Shown here: positions 44,082 through 64,000 of the stretch, piece by piece | Position numbering within the stretch: the stretch's first letter is position 1 | How the letters are laid out: every line of letters begins with the position of its first letter | NCBI RefSeq assembly: GCF_023555495.1 | Contig: NZ_JALCZO010000001.1 | Location: 186,001-250,000 of the forward strand | Direction of reading: 5' to 3' | Length of the DNA: 64,000 nt | Source: Polaribacter sp. Z022 | GTDB lineage: Bacteria; Bacteroidota; Bacteroidia; Flavobacteriales; Flavobacteriaceae | Made by a program: the position numbers and the translations under genes | Notes under the pieces: generated by a model | What the model was told of the DNA's origin: nothing | The model's input: the letters and a program-made list of their open reading frames with translations, nothing else | Databases searched by the model: none

Positions 44082-44669
44082 TCACCTAATAAAATAGAAA
44101 AAGAAAAATAGATAAATCCATAGTATATCTACAAAGTGCCAAAAGATTGCTCCTAGTTCAAATCCTAGCATATCATTGGGTTTGTACTTGTTTTTAAAAT
44201 GATTATAAATAACAACTAAAAGCACCAAAACACCTGCTAATAAGTGTAATACGTGCATAAATGTTATACCTATAATAAAAGATGTAGACACTGTACTTTC
44301 TGGTCCAGTAAAAAATAAACCAACACTTTTTAATTGATTAAAACCTACATATTGTTGCCAAATAAATCCTATTCCTAATAAAAAAGTTACTAATAGTAGT
44401 ATTAAAGACAGTTGTCTTTTGTCATTTTTTAAGAATTTTTGCGATAAAAACAACGTAATACTGCTAGCTACAATAAAAAAAGTACTTACATAAAATGCTT
44501 GTGGTAAATCAAAAGAAACCCAATCATCTCTTTTCATACTTATTACATATGCACTTGTTAAACCTGCAAAAAACATAACCATACTTATCATGGAAATCCA
44601 TAACATTGGTTTAGCTGATTTTTTCTTAGCTACTGATAATTCTTCTTGTAATATTTCTTCTTGTACCAT
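44082..44669 (-). CDS. Cytochrome c oxidase subunit III, short form
   Basis: A 195-residue heme-copper oxidase subunit III with five helices: MLWISMISMVMFFAGLTSAYVI, AFYVSTFFIVASSITLFLS, LILLLVTFLLGIGFIWQQYVGF, IIGITFMHVLHLLAGVLVLLVVIY and ELGAIFWHFVDILWIYLFFFFYFI. It starts 2 bp after the ctaB stop. The side-by-side short and long subunit III genes match the arrangement seen in Bacteroidota caa3-type oxidases. Subunits I and II are not in this window. Confidence 0.92.
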   Translation of the reverse strand: MVQEEILQEELSVAKKKSAKPMLWISMISMVMFFAGLTSAYVISMKRDDWVSFDLPQAFYVSTFFIVASSITLFLSQKFLKNDKRQLSLILLLVTFLLGIGFIWQQYVGFNQLKSVGLFFTGPESTVSTSFIIGITFMHVLHLLAGVLVLLVVIYNHFKNKYKPNDMLGFELGAIFWHFVDILWIYLFFFFYFIR

Positions 44670-56197: not shown

Positions 56198-57610
56198 TTA
56201 AATGCCCATTTTTTTATACTCAGAAGTGTTTATAGTTACATTTTTGTTTGAAACTTTAACAACCTTAATTGTCCAACTTTGCCCTTGATGATTTGAGTTT
56301 AATTCTAAAACAAAACCTTGTAAATAAGGATTGTTTAATTTCATACCCAACAATGGCATTTCTATATTTTGGATTGGAAATTCTTTTGTAACCCAAAAAC
56401 TAGCAGAACCTTTAGAGTTTGTATAATTATAATCCACCCTATATTCTTCACAATTATATCCTAAAATAGATTTTGTTTTTCCTGTTTTTTTGTATTCAAA
56501 ATCTTTACCATCAGGTAATTTATCAGACATATTGTACTGATTTCCCATTTGCTCTAAAGAAGTAGATTTTTTCATTTTCATACCAGCAACATTCATAAAA
56601 GCTGTTGATGATTTTGGTGTCATAACCATAGTTACAGAACCTTGACCTTGCATTTCTTTAGCAGCAACAGACATTCCATAAATATCAGGGTAATTACCTA
56701 ACAGAAATTCCATTTCATATTTTTCATTTCTATTATCAGTAATTTCTACTTCAATACTTTTGTTAAATGAAAATGCTTTTGGAATGTTAATAGTAGGAGA
56801 CAGTTTTTTATTGATATAACTTTTATCCGTTTTTGTAATAGAAGTATTGGTTGTAACATTCTTTTTTTCGTTTATAATTTTAGTAACTAAAAACTCAGGC
56901 TCAATTGTGCTAAAATTTCCTAAAACCATAGAAGTCCCTTTAGTTTTTGTATAACTACCGTCATTATTTTCAATTACAGAAGTAACTAACTCACCTTCTC
57001 CATTAAAACTAAAATCTACTTTTTTATCTTTCTGAATATTAATAGTTACAGCCCCTTTTTTTAAAGAATAAGTTTGATAGTTTTTAGTAACAGCTTTTGT
57101 AAAATTATCTTTAGATTTTGCTTTGTTTGGCAATGAAGGATCATAACTTAACTTTAATGTAGCTTCAGAAGGAATTAAAAATTTCCCCTTTTTATTGATT
57201 TCTTCAATACTGATTCCGTTTTTTAAAATCAACACATAACCATCATGAATATCTGCACTATGAGACCACCAAGATCCATTTAATTGAAACTTTTTTTCTT
57301 CTTTCATAATTTTTGTTCTTCCTAATTCATCAATGGTAACACTTCCAAATTTAGTGGTGTGAGAAATTGAAAAATCCCCATAATCTTTATTTTTATTTAC
57401 AGGTAAAGCAACTTCTTTTTTCTTAGTTTTCTTTTTTCCGTTTAACAAACTATCAACAGTTTTATCTGCTTCATTTTCTATTTTATTTTCTACCTTTTGC
57501 TGTACTTTATTTTTTAGTTTTTTCCAAAACTGAGCGTTTGTAGGCGTTATAAAACAAATTGATAAAATTAAAAATGTGGTTAGAATTTTTTGGTTGGTTT
57601 TAAATATCAT
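56198..57610 (-). CDS. Exported DUF4412-like protein of unknown function
   Basis: A 470-residue protein with a signal peptide ending TNAQ and a basic coiled region (FWKKLKNKVQQKVENKIENEADKTVDSLL). The middle is beta-rich, and the C-terminal ~190 residues resemble DUF4412 (SILGYNCEEYRVDYNYTNSKGSASFWVTKEFP, preceded by Met-rich VAGMKMKKSTSLEQMGNQY). Such proteins are periplasmic or surface-exposed and uncharacterised. It diverges from the sigma-factor operon with 98 bp between starts, so it could be a target or antagonist of that system. That is inference. Confidence 0.65.
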   Translation of the reverse strand: MIFKTNQKILTTFLILSICFITPTNAQFWKKLKNKVQQKVENKIENEADKTVDSLLNGKKKTKKKEVALPVNKNKDYGDFSISHTTKFGSVTIDELGRTKIMKEEKKFQLNGSWWSHSADIHDGYVLILKNGISIEEINKKGKFLIPSEATLKLSYDPSLPNKAKSKDNFTKAVTKNYQTYSLKKGAVTINIQKDKKVDFSFNGEGELVTSVIENNDGSYTKTKGTSMVLGNFSTIEPEFLVTKIINEKKNVTTNTSITKTDKSYINKKLSPTINIPKAFSFNKSIEVEITDNRNEKYEMEFLLGNYPDIYGMSVAAKEMQGQGSVTMVMTPKSSTAFMNVAGMKMKKSTSLEQMGNQYNMSDKLPDGKDFEYKKTGKTKSILGYNCEEYRVDYNYTNSKGSASFWVTKEFPIQNIEMPLLGMKLNNPYLQGFVLELNSNHQGQSWTIKVVKVSNKNVTINTSEYKKMGI

Positions 57611-57708: not shown

Positions 57709-58260
57709 ATGAGCGAACATCAACTAATCTTACTTTTAAAAGATTCTGATAAAGAAGTGCTTAAAATGTTGTACACAGAAAATAGAAATCCCTTTATAAA
57801 TTTTGCAAGAAAATTTCAGATTTCTGAAGAGGACATTCTTGATGTATATCAAGATGCAATAATAGTACTACAAGAAAAAGCTATTAAAGGAGAATTAGAA
57901 AATTTAACCTGCTCTATAAGAACCTTTTTATTTGGTATTGGAAAATATATGTTGTTTGAAAAAGCTCGAAAACATAAAAAGAAATTACCTCTTTTTCCAG
58001 AAAAAAAAGAAGATTACAATTATCTAGAAATTTGTAATGATTTTTTTGAAATTGAAGAAGAACTAAATGAATTACAAGTGTTACTAAAAAATGCTTTTTC
58101 AACATTAGGTAAGAAGTGTAAGGAAGTTTTAACGCTATTTTATTATAGAGGTTATACCATTGATGAAATTTCAGAAACATTAAATTATGAAAATAAAAAT
58201 GTAGCTAAAAGTCAGAAATCAAGATGTATAAAACAATTAAAAGAAAAGATTAAAAAGTAA
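57709..58260 (+). CDS. ECF-like sigma-70 family RNA polymerase sigma factor
   Basis: A 183-residue sigma factor with region 2 (about 20-75; FARKFQISEEDILDVYQDAIIVLQEKA, RTFLFGIGKYMLFEKAR) and region 4 (about 125-180; LGKKCKEVLTLFYYRGYTIDEISETLNYENKNVAKSQKSRCIKQLKEKI). There is no region 1.1 or 3, as in ECF factors. The next gene, 5 bp downstream, is a single-pass membrane protein in the position of an anti-sigma factor, followed by a TPR-CHAT peptidase. A variant -7 box (TATTATTTG, near 57675) precedes it. Confidence 0.9.
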   Translation: MSEHQLILLLKDSDKEVLKMLYTENRNPFINFARKFQISEEDILDVYQDAIIVLQEKAIKGELENLTCSIRTFLFGIGKYMLFEKARKHKKKLPLFPEKKEDYNYLEICNDFFEIEEELNELQVLLKNAFSTLGKKCKEVLTLFYYRGYTIDEISETLNYENKNVAKSQKSRCIKQLKEKIKK

Positions 58261-58265
58261 AACTC

Positions 58266-58901
58266 ATGGAAGAAAAAGAGTTTGATAAAAATCTAAAAAA
58301 AATAATTACTTCTCAAGAACGTAAACTCCAAAAAAAGTATTTACGCTCTGTAGAAGCATCTTTAATTAACACAAATAAAAGTAAAAAATTTAGCTGGTTA
58401 ATAGCTGCTTCTATTGGTTTGTTTATAGGTTTAGGTAGTTATTTGTTTTTATTTAACAACTCTCTTTCTAACGAAGAAATTTACAACACCTACTTTTCTC
58501 CATATGCTAATGTTGTTGAGCCTATTGTAAGAGACAAAGTAAACCTATCAAAAAAAGCAGAAGCATTTAGTTTGTACGAAAGAGGAGAGTATAAAAAAGC
58601 AATTATAAGCTTTAATCTTTTAAGTGATAAAGATTCTATAAATACTGCAACTCTTAATTTTTACAAAGCGAATACCTACATAAAGTTAAATGAGTTTGAA
58701 AAAGCTAAAAAACTTTTTCATAAAGTTATAGAAAATAACAGTAAAGAATGGAAACAAGAAAGTATGTGGTATTTAGCTTTAATTGCTATAAAACTGAATA
58801 ACATAGATACTGCTAAAACGCATTTACAAAACTTACAAAAACAAAATAAACAAGCTTTTAAAACTGAAGAAATAAAAACAATTTTAAGTAATCTTAAATA
58901 G
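58266..58901 (+). CDS. Single-pass membrane TPR protein, candidate anti-sigma factor
   Basis: A 211-residue protein with a 42-residue charged cytoplasmic segment (EEKEFDKNLKKIITSQERKLQKKYLRSVEASL), one transmembrane helix (about 43-63; FSWLIAASIGLFIGLGSYLFLF), and an outer domain with TPR-like helices (KAEAFSLYERGEYKKAIISFNLL, TLNFYKANTYIKLNEFEKAKKLFHKVI, MWYLALIAIKLNNIDTAKTHLQNL). Topology and operon position match an anti-sigma factor, but no HxxxCxxC zinc motif or known anti-sigma domain is visible. The outer TPR region could meet the TPRs of the co-encoded CHAT protein. Confidence 0.75.
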   Translation: MEEKEFDKNLKKIITSQERKLQKKYLRSVEASLINTNKSKKFSWLIAASIGLFIGLGSYLFLFNNSLSNEEIYNTYFSPYANVVEPIVRDKVNLSKKAEAFSLYERGEYKKAIISFNLLSDKDSINTATLNFYKANTYIKLNEFEKAKKLFHKVIENNSKEWKQESMWYLALIAIKLNNIDTAKTHLQNLQKQNKQAFKTEEIKTILSNLK

Positions 58902-58926
58902 ATTTTATTAATGTAAAACCAAAATA

Positions 58927-61662
58927 ATGATTTGTAAAACTAAAATACTTTTTTGCTTTTATTATGTTTGGTTTTTCTTTAGTTTTCAATCTATATCTGC
59001 GCAAAAAACAACTATTAATAGCAATGCAGAACAATTAAAAGAGTTAAAAAACAAAAAACTACAAAGCTCTAAAGATAGCCTTAAACTTGCCCAATTATAC
59101 CTTTATCAATTTATAGAACTACACAAAGAAAAAAAAACTATAAATAACCTTTCTTCTATTGACAATGGAATTTTAGCATGCCCAAAATCTCAAAAAGGAG
59201 ATAGTCTTAAAGCTGTTTTTTATAATAAGAAAGCCTACTTAGAAAGCGAGTTAGGGTTTAGTATGAAAAGCTATAAAAGCATTTTAACCTCTTTAAAATT
59301 ATTAGAAAAAATAGACAATCCAAACTCTGGTTATGTAATGGGTGCCTATCTTTTATTATCTAATAAAAACGCTTATTTCGGAAATTTTGAACAAGCTAAA
59401 CATTACATGCGTTTAGCCGAAAAGACTTACGCTAAAAATAAAACTTTTATTGACCAAAATACTTGGCAATTAAATGGTAATAATCATAGACTTGGAGTTA
59501 TAGCCAAATATCGAAAAATATACATGCTTTGGAAATTGTCTAAAAATTCAAACGATAGTTTATCAATTATAAACACTATGAATTCTTTAGAAAAAATACA
59601 CAACCAATCTAATTTTCATAAAGAAGAAAGAATTTATTATAGTACAGCTCTAAATCATATTGGAGATTGGTATATTACTCATAAACATGATTCTTTAACA
59701 ACTTTTAAAGACATTTCTACTGGTTTAAATTTTCTGTTTAAAGCGCAAAATTTAACAGAAAAAGAAAAATATCCTGGTACAATTTGGTCTATAAAATACA
59801 ACATTGCTAAAGGTTTTACTAAAGGAAACTTGTTAAATAAAGCAGATAGTACAATGGCTGTTTTATTTAAAGGAATCTCTAAAAATGATGGTAGGCTTCC
59901 TTTTTTCTATGCTCAAAAAGGATTGATCAAAGCTAGGAAAAATCAAAAAGATAGCGCGTTATTTTATTTTAACAATTCTATTAAAAAAATTCATCGTGGA
60001 AAAAACATTCTTACCAAAGATTATAAGAATTTTAAACCTAGTAAAAGTTACAATCATACACGTTTACTTCTAAGAATAAGTGAAGAACTTACTAATTATT
60101 ATTCTAAAGACTCTATTGTTCAAAAAAAAATAGCATCTATCTATTATTTAGCTTTGCAACAATTCGAAAACAGTTATTTAGATACCAACTTTAATGCAAA
60201 ACAAAATAATCAGCTTCGTAGAATAATTCAGGGTGTTTTAAGAAATAGAAAAACAGGGTATCTTAATAATTATTTACCTCAAAAAACAATTTTAAACAAG
60301 TTTGAAATTTTTAGAAATAAACTGGAATGGAAAAAGTTTTACGAAAATCGTTACACAAATATTTTACCAGAACTAGATTCTATAAAAAATAGAAATTTAG
60401 AATTAGCTTCTTTAATCAATAAAGCAAAAATTGCTAAAAACGTACCACTTAAGGATTCTATTCAAAAACTTATTTATACTCACGAAGATTACAAAAAAAA
60501 GGAATTTCCTCAGTTAGAATTACTAAGTAACTTTAATTTTTCTATTGATAAATTACAAGATAAATTAACCAATAAAGATCTAATTTTAAAATACATTTTA
60601 TTAAATAATGAAATTGCAATTTATCAAATATCTAAGAACAATTTTAAAGTTCAAATACTTCCTTGGAGAGCAAATGAAAAAAATGAATTAAACAATTTTA
60701 TAAAAAACATTCGTAACAGAAACTACAACTCTAATTTAGGAATAAAATTAGGGCAAAAACTAATACCAGATGTAAATAAAAGTATTACTCACCTTATCAT
60801 TAATCCAGATGGAATGCTATTTAAATTACCTTTTGAAACTTTACAAACAAAAGGAAAATTTACAACAGACCGTTTTCAATTTAGTTATACATCTAATTTA
60901 GGTTTAATAAATTTTAAATCTAATAAAACATCAACATCAAAAGATATTCTTATTTACGCTCCATTATATGCTAATTCAAGCACCAATAATAATATTAGAA
61001 ATAAACCTTCCTTTTTAAAAGGTGCAAGTACAGAAGCTAAAAATATAAGTAAACTATTTCCTTCTAAACTTTATAATGATAAAAATCTAACAAAAGCTAA
61101 ATTCATTTCTACTGCAGTTAAAGGTAAAATTTTGCACTTAGCAATGCATGCAGAAGTAAATTATGATTATCCAGAATTAAGTCGATTGTTGTTTAGTAAT
61201 AATTTAAAAAATGAGGATGAACACTTATACTTAGAAGAATTGTATGGTTTAAGTTTAAATGCAGAATTAGCTATTTTAAGTGCATGTAACACTGGCTCTG
61301 GAATAGAAAAAAATGGAAATTTAGAATCTTTTCAAAGAGCTTTTACTTTTGCTGGAGTACCTGCAACAGTTGTAAGTTTATGGGAAGTACCAGATTCTTC
61401 TACAGAACAAATTATGGTGCTATTCTATAAAAATTTAAAAGAAGGTCAAACAAAATCTGAAGCATTACAAAATGCAAAATTAAAATTTAGAGAAACAAAT
61501 ACTTTTAACAAATTATCTGCTCCATATTTTTGGGCAGGTTTTGTTGTATATGGAGATGATGCTCCAATAACAAATGATAAATCATCTTCATTTTACTTTA
61601 TAATTACTGTTTTAATTATGTTTGTTTTGATGATACTTTATAAGAAAAAAAACAAAGTATAA
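58927..61662 (+). CDS. Intact membrane-anchored TPR-CHAT (caspase-like) protein
   Basis: 911 residues: signal peptide (ILFCFYYVWFFFSFQSISAQ), a long TPR/helical region (about 35-480), a CHAT domain (about 540-880) and a C-terminal membrane helix (FYFIITVLIMFVLMILY) with basic tail. The catalytic dyad is present: His741 in ILHLAMHAE and Cys787 in LAILSACNTGSG. The peptidase would face the periplasm, tethered to the inner membrane. CHAT enzymes are clan CD cysteine proteases related to caspases and separase. It is third gene of the sigma/TPR operon, 25 bp downstream, and paralogous to the split copy at 50051-52731. Confidence 0.9.
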   Translation: MICKTKILFCFYYVWFFFSFQSISAQKTTINSNAEQLKELKNKKLQSSKDSLKLAQLYLYQFIELHKEKKTINNLSSIDNGILACPKSQKGDSLKAVFYNKKAYLESELGFSMKSYKSILTSLKLLEKIDNPNSGYVMGAYLLLSNKNAYFGNFEQAKHYMRLAEKTYAKNKTFIDQNTWQLNGNNHRLGVIAKYRKIYMLWKLSKNSNDSLSIINTMNSLEKIHNQSNFHKEERIYYSTALNHIGDWYITHKHDSLTTFKDISTGLNFLFKAQNLTEKEKYPGTIWSIKYNIAKGFTKGNLLNKADSTMAVLFKGISKNDGRLPFFYAQKGLIKARKNQKDSALFYFNNSIKKIHRGKNILTKDYKNFKPSKSYNHTRLLLRISEELTNYYSKDSIVQKKIASIYYLALQQFENSYLDTNFNAKQNNQLRRIIQGVLRNRKTGYLNNYLPQKTILNKFEIFRNKLEWKKFYENRYTNILPELDSIKNRNLELASLINKAKIAKNVPLKDSIQKLIYTHEDYKKKEFPQLELLSNFNFSIDKLQDKLTNKDLILKYILLNNEIAIYQISKNNFKVQILPWRANEKNELNNFIKNIRNRNYNSNLGIKLGQKLIPDVNKSITHLIINPDGMLFKLPFETLQTKGKFTTDRFQFSYTSNLGLINFKSNKTSTSKDILIYAPLYANSSTNNNIRNKPSFLKGASTEAKNISKLFPSKLYNDKNLTKAKFISTAVKGKILHLAMHAEVNYDYPELSRLLFSNNLKNEDEHLYLEELYGLSLNAELAILSACNTGSGIEKNGNLESFQRAFTFAGVPATVVSLWEVPDSSTEQIMVLFYKNLKEGQTKSEALQNAKLKFRETNTFNKLSAPYFWAGFVVYGDDAPITNDKSSSFYFIITVLIMFVLMILYKKKNKV

Positions 61663-61686: not shown

Positions 61687-61718
61687 TAAAAAAAGCATCA
61701 CAAAATTGTGATGCTTTT
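61687..61718. terminator. Intrinsic terminator (minus-strand ncRNA 1; probably also the CHAT operon)
   Basis: AAAAGCATCACAA / TTGTGATGCTTTT thirteen-base stem. The better T-run (seven) is on the minus strand, with a weaker T-rich tail on the plus strand. Confidence 0.85.
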
Positions 61719-61787
61719 ATTTATAAATTGATTAACCCCCTACAGTAAATCAATAAATAAAATTTCTTTATGATACATTCCTAAATG
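61687..61787 (-). ncRNA. Candidate small RNA 1, about 100 nt
   Basis: Predicted from the minus-strand -7 box TACATTTG (61793-61800) to the terminator at 61687. The inside carries a stem (ATTGATT / AATCAAT) closing a loop with CTGTAGGGGG, then a TTTATAAATAA single-stranded stretch, then the terminator. The order of parts, loop sequence and spacing from the upstream direct repeat are the same in candidate RNA 2. There is no plausible start-to-stop peptide. Expression is inferred; the RNA family is not one I recognise. Confidence 0.55.
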
Positions 61788-61792
61788 CTTTA

Positions 61793-61800
61793 CAAATGTA
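61793..61800 (-). promoter_or_regulatory. Minus-strand -7 box TACATTTG of candidate ncRNA 1
   Basis: Perfect TAnnTTTG; the identical octamer occurs at 62026. Exactly 30 nt separate it from the upstream direct repeat in both copies. Confidence 0.55.
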
Positions 61801-61830
61801 AAATTTACTTATTTAATTAAAACCAACTTT

Positions 61831-61860
61831 TGTATAATTGGTTGTAAATAATGTACCAAT
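61831..61860. promoter_or_regulatory. Phased direct repeat (LytTR-like site), copy 1
   Basis: TGTATAATT (61831) and TGTACCAAT (61852) start 21 bp apart, i.e. 9-mers with a 12-bp spacer, as in LytTR-domain binding sites. Confidence 0.5.
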
Positions 61861-61906
61861 AACAATAAATTGTATTAAAACATCTCAAATTAAAACCTTA
61901 TAAAGT

Positions 61907-61938
61907 AAAAAAGCCTCACAAATTTGTGAAGCTTTTTT
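61907..61938 (-). terminator. Intrinsic terminator of candidate ncRNA 2
   Basis: AAAAAAGC / GCTTTTTT and TCACAAA / TTTGTGA pair around one C-A mismatch, with a T-run on each strand. Confidence 0.82.
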
Positions 61939-62020
61939 ATTTATAAATTGGCTAACCCCCTACAGTTAATCAATTTTAAACTCTTTCTTTTCATTGAAAA
62001 GTTACATTTCCCCCAAAATG
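61907..62020 (-). ncRNA. Candidate small RNA 2, about 114 nt
   Basis: Runs from the -7 box TACATTTG (62026-62033) to the terminator at 61907. It shares with RNA 1 a GCATTT..GG 5' segment, the CTGTAGGGGG loop and the TTTATAAATAA stretch. Its loop stem is ATTGATTAAC / GTTAGCCAAT with one mismatch and one G-T pair. The 5' region is longer and holds a GGGGGAAATG stretch. Confidence 0.55.
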
Positions 62021-62025
62021 CACTC

Positions 62026-62033
62026 CAAATGTA
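62026..62033 (-). promoter_or_regulatory. Minus-strand -7 box TACATTTG of candidate ncRNA 2
   Basis: Same octamer as at 61793, again 30 nt from its direct repeat. Confidence 0.55.
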
Positions 62034-62063: not shown

Positions 62064-62093
62064 TGTATAAATGGAAGTAAATTCTGTATAAAT
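62064..62093. promoter_or_regulatory. Phased direct repeat (LytTR-like site), copy 2
   Basis: TGTATAAAT at 62064 and again, identical, at 62085: a 21-bp period. It also lies 66 bp upstream of the LytTR gene's own -7 box, so it could serve both directions. Confidence 0.52.
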
Positions 62094-62159
62094 AACAATT
62101 TTTAGAAGCAAATCGATCTTTCTATATTATTAAAGTAATAAAAAATGTAAATAATATAG

Positions 62160-62182: not shown

Positions 62183-62917
62183 ATGTTAACAGCTGTAATT
62201 GTAGATGATGAACCAAAAGCCATACAAGGCTTATCTTGGGAATTATCTAATTTTAAAGACCAAATAAAGGTTATTGCAACTTTTAATGATCCAGAAAAAG
62301 CTTTAATTTATATAGCTGAAAATGAAATTGATTGTCTTTTTTTAGACATTGAAATGCCAACTATGGATGGTTTTCAGTTTTTAAGCAAACTTAAATCTAG
62401 AGATTTTGCAGTAGTTATTACAACTGCCTATAATGAATATGCAATAAAAGCTCTAAAAAATGAAGCTATAGATTACCTACTAAAACCTATAGACACTGAT
62501 GATTTAGAAGAAACCATCGTAAAAGTTAAAAACTATAATTTTAGATCTTTAAATTCTAGTAAGATTGAAAAAGTATTGCTAAATTTTAATAAAAAATTAA
62601 ACAATAAAAAAATAACTATTAATACTGATGGAAAGTTAATTTTTTTAGCACCCAAAGAAATTTTATTTATAGAATCTGATGGAAATTATTCTACAATTCA
62701 TACTACAGAAAACAAGAAAATTGTTGTAACAAAAAAATTAAAAGAAGTAAATACTTTATTACCTGAAGATGTGTTTTTTAGAATTCACAATTCTTTTATT
62801 GTAAACTTAAAAAAGGTAAAAGAATTTTATAAAACTGATGGATATGTAGTTTTAGAACAGAACCATAAAATACCTGTTTCTAGACAAAAGAAAGCAGAAT
62901 TTTTAGATAAACTATAA
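62183..62917 (+). CDS. LytTR-family response regulator
   Basis: 244 residues: receiver domain (about 1-120) with the acidic pocket VDDEP, phosphoacceptor Asp55 in CLFLDIEMPTMDG, Thr in VITTAYNEYA and Lys in LLKPID. A LytTR DNA-binding domain (about 150-244) follows (KLIFLAPKEILFIESDGNYSTIHT, FFRIHNSFIVNLKKVKEF, VVLEQNHKIPVSRQKK). LytTR domains bind paired direct repeats one helical turn-pair apart, such as those at 62064. An in-frame TTG at 62165 lies in the -7 box, so I start at 62183. The sensor gene follows after 5 bp. Confidence 0.94.
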   Translation: MLTAVIVDDEPKAIQGLSWELSNFKDQIKVIATFNDPEKALIYIAENEIDCLFLDIEMPTMDGFQFLSKLKSRDFAVVITTAYNEYAIKALKNEAIDYLLKPIDTDDLEETIVKVKNYNFRSLNSSKIEKVLLNFNKKLNNKKITINTDGKLIFLAPKEILFIESDGNYSTIHTTENKKIVVTKKLKEVNTLLPEDVFFRIHNSFIVNLKKVKEFYKTDGYVVLEQNHKIPVSRQKKAEFLDKL

Positions 62918-62922
62918 GAAGT

Positions 62923-64000
62923 ATGAAAGTTAAAATAACTTCAATTGTTTTTTTACTATTTAGTATTGTTTCTTTTTCTCAAACAAAAGAAATCAATAAA
63001 AAAATAGATTATCTAGTTGATAACAAATTTTCATCTTTAGATATTATTGATTCTGTTTTAAGAAAAAACAGAAAAGATAAACCTATCTTAGAATTATTAG
63101 TTAAAAAAAGTAAAGAAAAAGCTTATTTAGAAGGTGAGTTTTACGGATCTAATGGTTTAGGTAGGTATTATAGAGATCACTCTATTTTTAATAAATCTAT
63201 TACTTTTTACAAAAAAGCTCTTGGAATTAGCAGAGTTTTAAAAGACACTGTTTCTGAAGTAAAGATTTTAAATTCTATGGGTTCTGTTTACAGAAGGCAA
63301 GATGATATAAGAAAAGCATTAAATTACCATAAAGAAGCTTTAGACATAGCAGTTCATATTAAAAACCCAAAAGTTAGTATTAAAAAGAGTATTAGTATTT
63401 CGCAAAATAGTATTGGAAATATTTACATATCATTAAAACAATACAAATTAGCTTTAAATGAGTTTAAAAAATCAATTGTTGTTCAAAGAGAACTTGGACA
63501 TAAATTAGGCTTAGCTATAAATCATCAAAATATTGGAAATGCACATGAAGAACTTGGAGATTTAGATAAGGCTCTTAATAATTATAAAAAATCTTTAAAT
63601 TATAACAACCAAATAAGTTCTAAAATTGGAAGAGTAATTTGTGGTTATAGTATAGCTAATGTATTAATAAAACAAAAAAAATATAACAAAGCTTTTATTA
63701 CTGTTGATACTGTTTTACAAACAGCCATACAACAAAAAGACAAATACTACCTTTCTAACACTTATAGTACTTTAGGTTTAGCTCAATTGCATTTAAATAA
63801 ATTGGATAATGCTAAAAAAAATTTAACAACCGCTTTAAAAATTGCAACAGAATTTAACGTACATACAATTGTTGTTAAAGCAAATGAAAATTTAGCTTTA
63901 TTATATGAAAAACAGAATGATTTCCAAAAAGCATTTAATTATTATAGAATTGCAAAAGAAGAAGATGCTAAAACTCTTAACGAACGTAATTTACTTTATG
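62923..64000 (+). CDS. TPR-containing sensor protein, probably histidine kinase (N-terminal part)
   Basis: The reading frame is open from ATG 62923 to the window end (359 codons), so the gene is cut. It begins with a signal peptide (ITSIVFLLFSIVSFSQ), followed by at least five TPRs in the sensing region (SITFYKKALGISRVL, ALNYHKEALDIAVHI, NSIGNIYISLKQYKLALNEFKKSI, NIGNAHEELGDLDKALNNYKKSL, TYSTLGLAQLHLNKLDNAKKNLTTAL). TPR sensors of this form in Flavobacteria usually end in a membrane helix and a LytS-type His-kinase domain and pair with LytTR regulators; that end is outside the window. Confidence 0.82.
   Translation, partial: MKVKITSIVFLLFSIVSFSQTKEINKKIDYLVDNKFSSLDIIDSVLRKNRKDKPILELLVKKSKEKAYLEGEFYGSNGLGRYYRDHSIFNKSITFYKKALGISRVLKDTVSEVKILNSMGSVYRRQDDIRKALNYHKEALDIAVHIKNPKVSIKKSISISQNSIGNIYISLKQYKLALNEFKKSIVVQRELGHKLGLAINHQNIGNAHEELGDLDKALNNYKKSLNYNNQISSKIGRVICGYSIANVLIKQKKYNKAFITVDTVLQTAIQQKDKYYLSNTYSTLGLAQLHLNKLDNAKKNLTTALKIATEFNVHTIVVKANENLALLYEKQNDFQKAFNYYRIAKEEDAKTLNERNLLY

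Follow-up and report, generated by a model that had tools for sequence, protein, structure and literature searches.

What are the two diverged copies of one unit that stand at 61687-62033 on the minus strand of a 64,000-nt stretch of the Polaribacter sp. Z022 genome (hereafter the window), and, if they are RNA genes, what switches them on and what do they act on? The answer that we regard as probable is a LytTR-RNA module, in which paralogous trans-acting RNAs would be activated by the regulator and would pair through G-runs with C-run leaders. The RNA, its structure, its promoter, and its linkage are supported by the comparison of sequences, and the support for a C-run target, at a lipocalin-like gene, is limited to Tenacibaculum-type genomes. 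Binding of the regulator to its presumed site, activation rather than repression, the sign of the effect on targets, and the same mode or other targets in the window's species are inferences.

Two related units share one design

In both copies, the order from 5' to 3' is a -7 box TACATTTG, a 5' hairpin, a middle hairpin with the loop CTGTAGGGGG, and an intrinsic terminator, which confirms the two minus-strand units with box, hairpin, and terminator that an earlier note on this DNA had described. Counted from the base after its -7 box (62026-62033) to the end of the terminator T-run, copy A covers 61907-62025, with the true start probably a few bases inside 62025; its middle hairpin lies at 61947-61974 (loop at 61956-61965) and its terminator at 61907-61938. 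Copy B covers 61688-61792 behind a box at 61793-61800, with the middle hairpin at 61727-61754 (loop at 61736-61745) and the terminator at 61689-61718. With the end of the -7 box as the starting point, copy A is 119 nt and copy B 105 nt long; values of about 100 and 114 nt had been given before for the pair.

The 38-bp cores (61937-61974 in copy A and 61717-61754 in copy B) are identical at 35 of 38 positions, as had been estimated. The loop had been described as kept in structure although its bases differ, and here the description must be corrected, as CTGTAGGGGG is identical in both copies. A TTTATAAATAA stretch pointed out in the same place is indeed common to both copies but is not kept in relatives. 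What had not been listed is a second G-run of copy A, TTTTGGGGGAAA, in the loop of its 5' hairpin (62003-62022, minus strand; GCATTTTGGGGGAAATGT); the 5' hairpin of copy B (GCATTTAGGAATGT) has only GG there. Hairpins like the 5' one of copy A were seen by eye in G029, Hel1_85, G044, BM10, IC073, and DS7-9.

Both units fold much better than their shuffled versions (z -5.07 for copy A and -5.15 for copy B, with 0 of 200 shuffles as good in each case). Model R2 gives them 59.5 and 56.2 bits, scores that call for caution since copies A and B were themselves among the sequences from which R2 was built. The loop decamer CTGTAGGGGG occurs exactly only at the two RNA sites when both strands of the 3.49-Mb assembly are considered, and CCCCC starts at four plus-strand places of the 64-kb window, three of which are the G-runs of the two RNAs. 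On the other side of the RNAs, genes for a sigma factor, a TPR protein, and a CHAT-domain protein stand in a row (57709-61662), and the end of this row converges on the RNAs.

Homologous RNAs keep the structure

Exact matches of CTGTAGGGGG in relatives were rejected as a source of homologs, being mostly chance: of the 31 loci that were read, which include both loci of the window itself, L016 alone could be recognized as homologous, and further exact matches exist beyond these 31. In L016 (G044), the same RNA lies by the same LytTR gene, with the stem rewritten as AACTAGTTA/TAACTAGTT and the loop unchanged. Orthologs of the regulator were used as a handle that is independent of the RNA. A regulator match at E <= 1e-50 was present in 47 of 97 genus genomes; 44 loci were orthologs, with 66-100% identity, and 42 of them could be scored, having a start that was found and a readable divergent side, which left two orthologs unscorable. 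The RNA lies divergently upstream of the LytTR ortholog in 23 of these 42 loci of the Polaribacter/Tenacibaculum genus set, with lengths of 86-139 nt. A script that demanded the direct repeat described below, a -7 box, GGGG, and a terminator returned 26 RNAs in 22 of the 42 loci, and L079 was added by eye. As GGGG was demanded, the presence of a G-run in alignment A3, which comprises 25 of the 27 RNAs (L069 and L079 were left out), is partly a matter of selection.

The RNAs form two groups. Group I consists of the window, G029, G044, Polaribacter sp. Hel1_85, and BM10, all with the loop CTGTAGGGGG. Group II, Tenacibaculum and others, mostly has TTGATAAATTGGGGGATTAATCAA with a GGGG tetraloop; among the 20 rows of A3 that belong to this group, 13 have a second 5' G-run of at least four G (AAGGGGAA), and in the other seven it is shorter or absent. 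With the 25 RNAs, RNAalifold found the middle hairpin and the terminator unprompted. When the middle hairpin was imposed, 94% of the cells paired and 7 of 10 pairs had changes on both sides, compared with 0-3 pairs if the partners were slid by 1-3 columns and a mean of 2.8 in shuffles. A small peptide gene was considered as well and ruled out by indels between members; a reading frame is unlikely because L068, L074, and L079 differ from other members by a one-base gap beside the loop.

The earlier view that these are structured RNAs and not spacer is borne out by relatives, which keep the place, the promoter spacing, a compensating hairpin, and the terminator. Two structured minus-strand RNAs are supported by these comparisons, with expression unshown, and we are very confident that a real small-RNA family is at hand, even in the absence of expression data. 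Of the features by which we would assign an RNA to the trans-acting base-pairing small RNAs, a conserved non-coding structure with its own predicted promoter and terminator is present; for a conserved complementary site in target mRNAs, the findings given below point in both directions. The note had also named homologous loci without the RNA features as a possible refutation. The claim was not refuted in this way, yet the test was not passed everywhere: in 19 of the 42 genus loci that were scored, the regulator has no RNA of this kind at its side, the loop letters vary by lineage (CTGTAGGGGG in the window's group, mostly TTGGGGGATT in Tenacibaculum), and the second hairpin is lost or changed in a few close relatives, with DS7-9 seeming to be without it and IC073 having no G-run in it.

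It was in principle possible that the hairpins are mere terminators, for example of the convergent CHAT operon, that were duplicated by chance. The terminator of copy B starts about 27 bp behind the CHAT stop codon, its other strand may be used by this operon, and T-rich stretches are present on both strands. However, the -7 box, the fixed-distance repeat, the 5' part, and the loop are conserved in relatives with other neighbors, and a CHAT-operon terminator, which had been offered as a partial alternative, cannot explain homologs that adjoin other genes. We give this possibility hardly any credence and continue with RNA genes. A further point, which like the second hairpins of DS7-9 and IC073 counts against our model, is that two homologous loci (L117 and L123) have a C-rich second loop (CTTCCCTAGG and TTTCCCTAG, respectively) in place of a G-rich one.

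A direct repeat connects the RNAs with a LytTR regulator

Divergent from the RNAs, the plus strand carries a gene for a LytTR response regulator (62183-62917; Pfam Response_reg and LytTR) and the start of a gene for a TPR sensor histidine kinase (62923-64000; Pfam TPR and His_kinase), which is complete in L194 with 638 aa. The two RNA units would be paralogous trans-acting small RNAs that form one module with this divergent regulator and kinase. Between regulator and RNA lies a direct repeat with 21-bp spacing, close to ACCATTTAYACA-N9-ACCATTTAYACA, which is the presumed LytTR site. Upstream of copy A (62064-62096, minus strand), the repeat scores 20/24 and is the best place in the window, with ten shuffled windows reaching 17-18. 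The repeat upstream of copy B (61831-61863, minus strand) scores 18/24 and is no better than the best shuffled windows; it stands 38 bp before the -7 box end, as in relatives.

Among the scored genus orthologs, the repeat reaches at least 17/24 in 42 of 42 loci and at least 18 in 40 of 42, and two regulator paralogs (45-48% identity) have scores of only 14 and 16. We also scanned named genomes with the regulator alignment and analyzed the best 80 loci of 422 relatives. In these best 80, a spacing of 21 was best or tied in every case, 78 loci scored at least 18/24 as against 0.2 in shuffles, and a TTTG ended behind the repeat at a distance of 38 bp in 46 cases and of 37 bp in 10. Since the consensus of the repeat was drawn from some of the scored loci, its score does not count as independent evidence, but the fixed spacing and distance had not been built in. 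Given the repeat in all 42 loci and a -7 box whose end mostly lies 37-38 bp behind it, we consider it very probable, on sequence evidence alone, that the RNA is driven by the regulator. Of the features by which we would recognize a response-regulator-controlled RNA, an adjacent regulator gene and a regulator-type site at a fixed promoter distance are present, as judged from the sequence. In the mechanism that we propose, the phosphorylated regulator would bind the two-part repeat, about 40-75 bp before the start, and would activate the RNA promoter.

As the site lies between divergent genes, it could serve either of them, and the regulator might just as well repress the RNA promoter, or the repeat might serve only the regulator's own gene; L084, L090, L093, L094, and L096 do keep the repeat without a box at the usual distance. 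Against both versions stands the geometry, with a mostly constant 37-38 bp to the divergent -7 box and a varying 18 to more than 300 bp to the regulator ATG, as well as the finding that unlinked RNA copies keep the site. We consider these versions quite improbable and retain an activated RNA promoter.

By eye, the same site faces other products in other lineages. In several Polaribacter, the product is a secreted protein (AQFWKKLKKK or similar); in Maribacter and Eudoraea, it is a small protein, and in Gelidibacter, Meridianimaribacter, and Ichthyenterobacterium, a different hairpin RNA, with GTGGGGATTCAC. Our inference is that the site goes with the regulator and that the RNA is among its outputs. 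When the window's own genome was searched for the LytTR site, copy A's site came up together with a single place with three mismatches, compared with four matches of the reversed control. As the control out-matched the search, we claim no further regulon. Look-alikes of the window gene 56198-57610 lie divergent from the regulator in other Polaribacter, and the region before this gene does not rank with the top repeat scores in the window.

Two side aspects of the regulator loci may be added. In L084, L090, L093, L094, and L096, the repeat is found 18-24 bp from the regulator start, and no RNA was seen. Hairpin RNAs of other genera that are divergent from the same regulator, with a GTGGGGATTCAC-like loop and a TGATTAAATGCTATTAATCA-like hairpin, occur in L135, L154, L173, L174, L179, and L190.

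Distribution of the family and unlinked copies

With R2 at 49.8 bits or more, 30 matches were obtained in 27 of the best 80 named loci, all of them upstream of the regulator and divergent from it; some named loci come from the same genomes as A3, so that this result is not wholly independent. The carriers comprise Polaribacter, uncultured relatives, and Tenacibaculum, the last with T. discolor, T. gallaicum, the fish pathogens T. finnmarkense, T. dicentrarchi, and T. soleae, and others. An R2 census of the 97 genus genomes found 30 with a match at E <= 1e-4, of which the weakest are possibly due to chance (e.g., G116); with 43 candidates scored per genome, some RNAs may have been missed. Over 397 family genomes from 237 genera, R2 matched only the window's genome at E <= 1e-6, which is a weak negative, as 10 candidates were scored per genome. 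Model R1, built from three sequences, had matches in all 97 genomes at E <= 1, and those read were mostly AT-rich terminators; weak R1 matches were therefore not counted.

Two copies stand beside the regulator in the window's genome, G029, Hel1_85, G127, and G128. Further multiplication is found in G107, with four R2 matches of which three are unlinked, and in G132, with six matches, five unlinked, one of them weak. Seven unlinked copies were read (L214, L228, and L229 in G107; L218, L239, L241, and L242 in G132). In six of the seven, the repeat lies exactly 38 bp before the box end (scores 15, 17, 20, 20, 23, and 24 of 24); L228 has a repeat of 23/24 with no ordinary box behind it. L214 and L241 adjoin a lipocalin-like gene.

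Related TTGGGGGAT hairpin RNAs were also noted in L380 (G020), L382 (G026), L383 (G125), L385 (G097), and L387 (G042), from genomes without a LytTR ortholog match at 1e-50; some have a different upstream direct repeat, about 30 bp apart (by eye). In L108 (G029:C1:1302700-1303900), a TTGATAAACTGTAGGGGGTTTATCAA hairpin and a terminator-like hairpin lie at about 490-570, behind an apparent protein-gene end, and the repeat is absent (best score 14).

C-runs at the start of a lipocalin-like gene

According to our model, the RNA would expose one or two G-runs, in its 5' part and in the middle hairpin loop, and these would pair with C-runs in short target-mRNA leaders and control translation, most likely by blocking the start site. 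To our knowledge, these bacteria do not use Shine-Dalgarno pairing. The lipocalin-like gene was noticed through the adjoining RNA copies in G107 and G132 and through C-runs in three orthologs (G017, G132, and G049). It encodes a secreted protein (about 124 aa) that matches Lipocalin_4 weakly, with one ortholog above the Pfam cut-off and one below it. A protein search at E <= 1e-15 found the gene in 15 of 97 genomes, and all 15 belong to the 30 genomes with an R2 match (E <= 1e-4), whereas it was found in none of the remaining 67.

Each of the 15 leaders carries at least one CCCC run in the 22 bp that precede the ATG, 13 carry two, and in all 15 a -7-like box (loose pattern) stands 9-21 bp before the first C-run. 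Three of the 15 genes had been found through C-run searches; among the 12 that had not, 12 have a run and 10 have two. As a background, we took 511 ORFs of at least 100 aa in regulator loci, of which three have one run within 30 bp and none has two. Given 15 of 15 leaders with C-runs compared with 3 of 511 in the background, pairing at the start site is the likely mode at this gene. As the orthologs go down to 34% identity to the query, the C-runs were kept while the protein changed. We computed duplexes between 14 of the 15 leaders (60 nt) and the first 66 nt of the linked RNA, ignoring RNA structure, and 0 to 48 of the 511 background leaders were as good or better. Inspection by eye shows, in several duplexes, the 5' G-run opposite the 3' C-run and the loop G-run opposite the 5' C-run.

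Phylogeny is a confounder here, as the RNA and the lipocalin-like gene could both mark one clade. Because such shared ancestry could by itself give the co-occurrence, the pairing model is likely and not shown. With this reservation, we lean toward the view that the RNA pairs with C-run leaders in Tenacibaculum.

A real and regulator-driven RNA might also act without any mRNA pairing, if its G-run loops bound a protein in the manner of a CsrB-like titrating sponge. Sponges of the CsrB/RsmY type bind CsrA through repeated GGA motifs, and CsrA is not known to occur in the phylum. The short G-run motif is present twice in many members, and the RNAs are multiplied in some genomes, as titrating RNAs are. 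However, the letters around the G-run differ between lineages, and the gene that is confined to genomes with an R2 match has start C-runs in 15 of 15 cases. In our view, such a sponge is improbable, and mRNA pairing remains the preferred reading.

No clear genome-wide tie between C-runs and the RNA

In 18 group II genomes, the loop complement AATCCCCCAA had 97 matches as against 35 of the reversed pattern; a part of the 97 are the RNA genes themselves and unlinked copies. Seventy-one other places were read, and eight of them lay just before an ORF ATG on the sense strand and five on the opposite strand. With another C-run decamer as a control (30 of 35 places read), 7 of 30 lay before ORF starts, with 0 of 30 on the opposite strand. 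As this second decamer also matched ORF starts, a place before the start is not peculiar to C-runs that are the exact complement. Double C-runs were found in 26 of 97 genomes across the genus, namely in 8 of 23 with the regulator-linked RNA and in 18 of 74 others; by R2 match, the counts are 11 of 30 with and 15 of 67 without. Among 27 double runs that were read, nine were start-proximal, four of these in genomes without an R2 match. Double C-runs are not clearly tied to the RNA genome-wide, which is evidence against a simple genome-wide rule. AATCCCCCAA near ORF starts was dropped as a signal tied to the RNA, as neither the control with the other C-run nor the genus-wide search for double runs gave a tie, which was obtained for the lipocalin-like gene alone.

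These counts bear on the possibility that the C-runs of the lipocalin-like gene have nothing to do with the RNA, being instead a DNA operator or some feature of the leader, and that the RNA has other targets. The runs begin 9-21 bp behind the -7-like box, where a repressor could bind, and such a feature would agree with start-proximal C-runs in genomes without an R2 match and with double runs that lack a clear tie to the RNA. Against it stand the co-occurrence in 15 of 15 genomes, the RNA copy adjoining the gene in two of them, and the ranks of the duplexes before most background leaders. We consider an operator or unrelated feature unlikely, while keeping it in mind, and hold to pairing at this gene.

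Some individual C-run places deserve mention in their own right. Similar lipoprotein genes in three species (L266, L269, and L287) have C-runs before the ATG, and those in L269 and L287 have C-runs also within the first codons; a CAP domain was found in L266, the sole one scanned. In L222 (G120:C5 near 44633-44666), a short intergenic inverted repeat has the arms AATCCCCCAA and TTGGGGGATT.

Candidate partners in the window's species

In the window's genome, there is no lipocalin-like match at E <= 1e-15, and the RNA genes are the only places with an exact 10-nt complement of the loop. CCCCCTAC, the complement of most of the loop, is found five times in this genome: twice in the RNA genes, twice antisense to ORFs, and once in L302. 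G044 has a single other CCCCCTAC, which precedes by 3 nt the ATG of an ORF of 156 aa whose start is signal-like (L296). L302 and L296 are single cases for which no conservation is shown. That the same pairing mode operates in the window's species is entirely inferred, with no target established, and we regard it as an open matter that leans slightly to the doubtful side.

In L302 (G000:C44 near 237362, minus strand), a terminator hairpin that follows a TATATTTG box carries CCCCCTAC in its loop, and a second C-run there is complementary to copy A's 5' loop; by eye, the complements to the two loops of copy A comprise 10 and 9 nt. L302 is a candidate for a C-run small RNA that acts as a sponge. 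At another place of the window's genome, L344 (G000:C10:850805-850819, minus strand), three C-runs lie between a stop codon and a terminator-like hairpin. One could extend the model to a G-run/C-run code under LytTR-controlled RNAs, in which two G-runs would grip two leader C-runs, copies would settle beside their targets, and C-run RNAs of some genomes, such as L302, would be sponges; we put this forward as a speculation that is unlikely to hold in full.

Discussion

The RNAIII and FasX families are included in Rfam. Rfam 15 gave no match at threshold in the window and none in eight related loci, so that no homology to RNAIII or FasX was indicated by this measure, FasX having been compared through Rfam only. 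Without the threshold, there were 29 matches at E <= 10, all under the gathering scores.

AgrA, the regulator of the agr system, is a LytTR protein, and RNAIII is an RNA of about 514 nt that codes for delta-hemolysin. In agr of Staphylococcus aureus, a regulator operon and a regulatory RNA are divergent as in our case, the regulator activates the RNA promoter, and the RNA pairs with mRNAs (PMC4691137). The present RNAs differ from RNAIII in their size of about 100 nt, in the TPR kinase, and in G-rich loops, whereas the loops of RNAIII are C-rich. FasX is also under a LytTR regulator. The FasX RNA of Streptococcus pyogenes is similar in being a small RNA whose run-rich seed acts on the 5' part of mRNAs for secreted proteins (PMC4691137). 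Its seed is C-rich (UCAAUCCCC), whereas the present RNA is G-rich, and the phylum is a different one.

Several similar RNAs per genome under one response regulator are known from the Qrr RNAs of Vibrio, and CiaR of Streptococcus pneumoniae is a non-LytTR regulator. The pneumococcal csRNAs under CiaR resemble the situation in G107 and G132, with several similar RNAs under one response regulator in one genome (PMC4691137). Unlike the RNAs described here, they carry CCUCCU, which is implicated in blocking the ribosome site (PMC4691137).

Comparable within the family is Rfp18 of Flavobacterium psychrophilum, a structured small RNA of Flavobacteriaceae that affects metalloprotease mRNAs (PMC9723704). 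Identity of our RNA with Rfp18 is neither shown nor excluded, and no F. psychrophilum locus is among the best 80 named loci. Without an Rfam match and with this identity not excluded, the RNA family of Polaribacter and Tenacibaculum looks undescribed. In the literature searched, we found no report that joins LytTR regulators and small RNAs in Flavobacteriaceae, with PMC5395568, which matches all three terms, as a possible exception.

The proposed module mirrors a pattern from Gram-positive bacteria in which C-rich RNA motifs meet the ribosome site (PMC4691137), with the letters reversed here. Small RNAs of Flavobacteriaceae are little known, and this RNA family is a clue to gene control in these bacteria. 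A defined module of regulator, RNA, and target in marine Polaribacter and Tenacibaculum would make post-transcriptional control without Shine-Dalgarno pairing directly testable.
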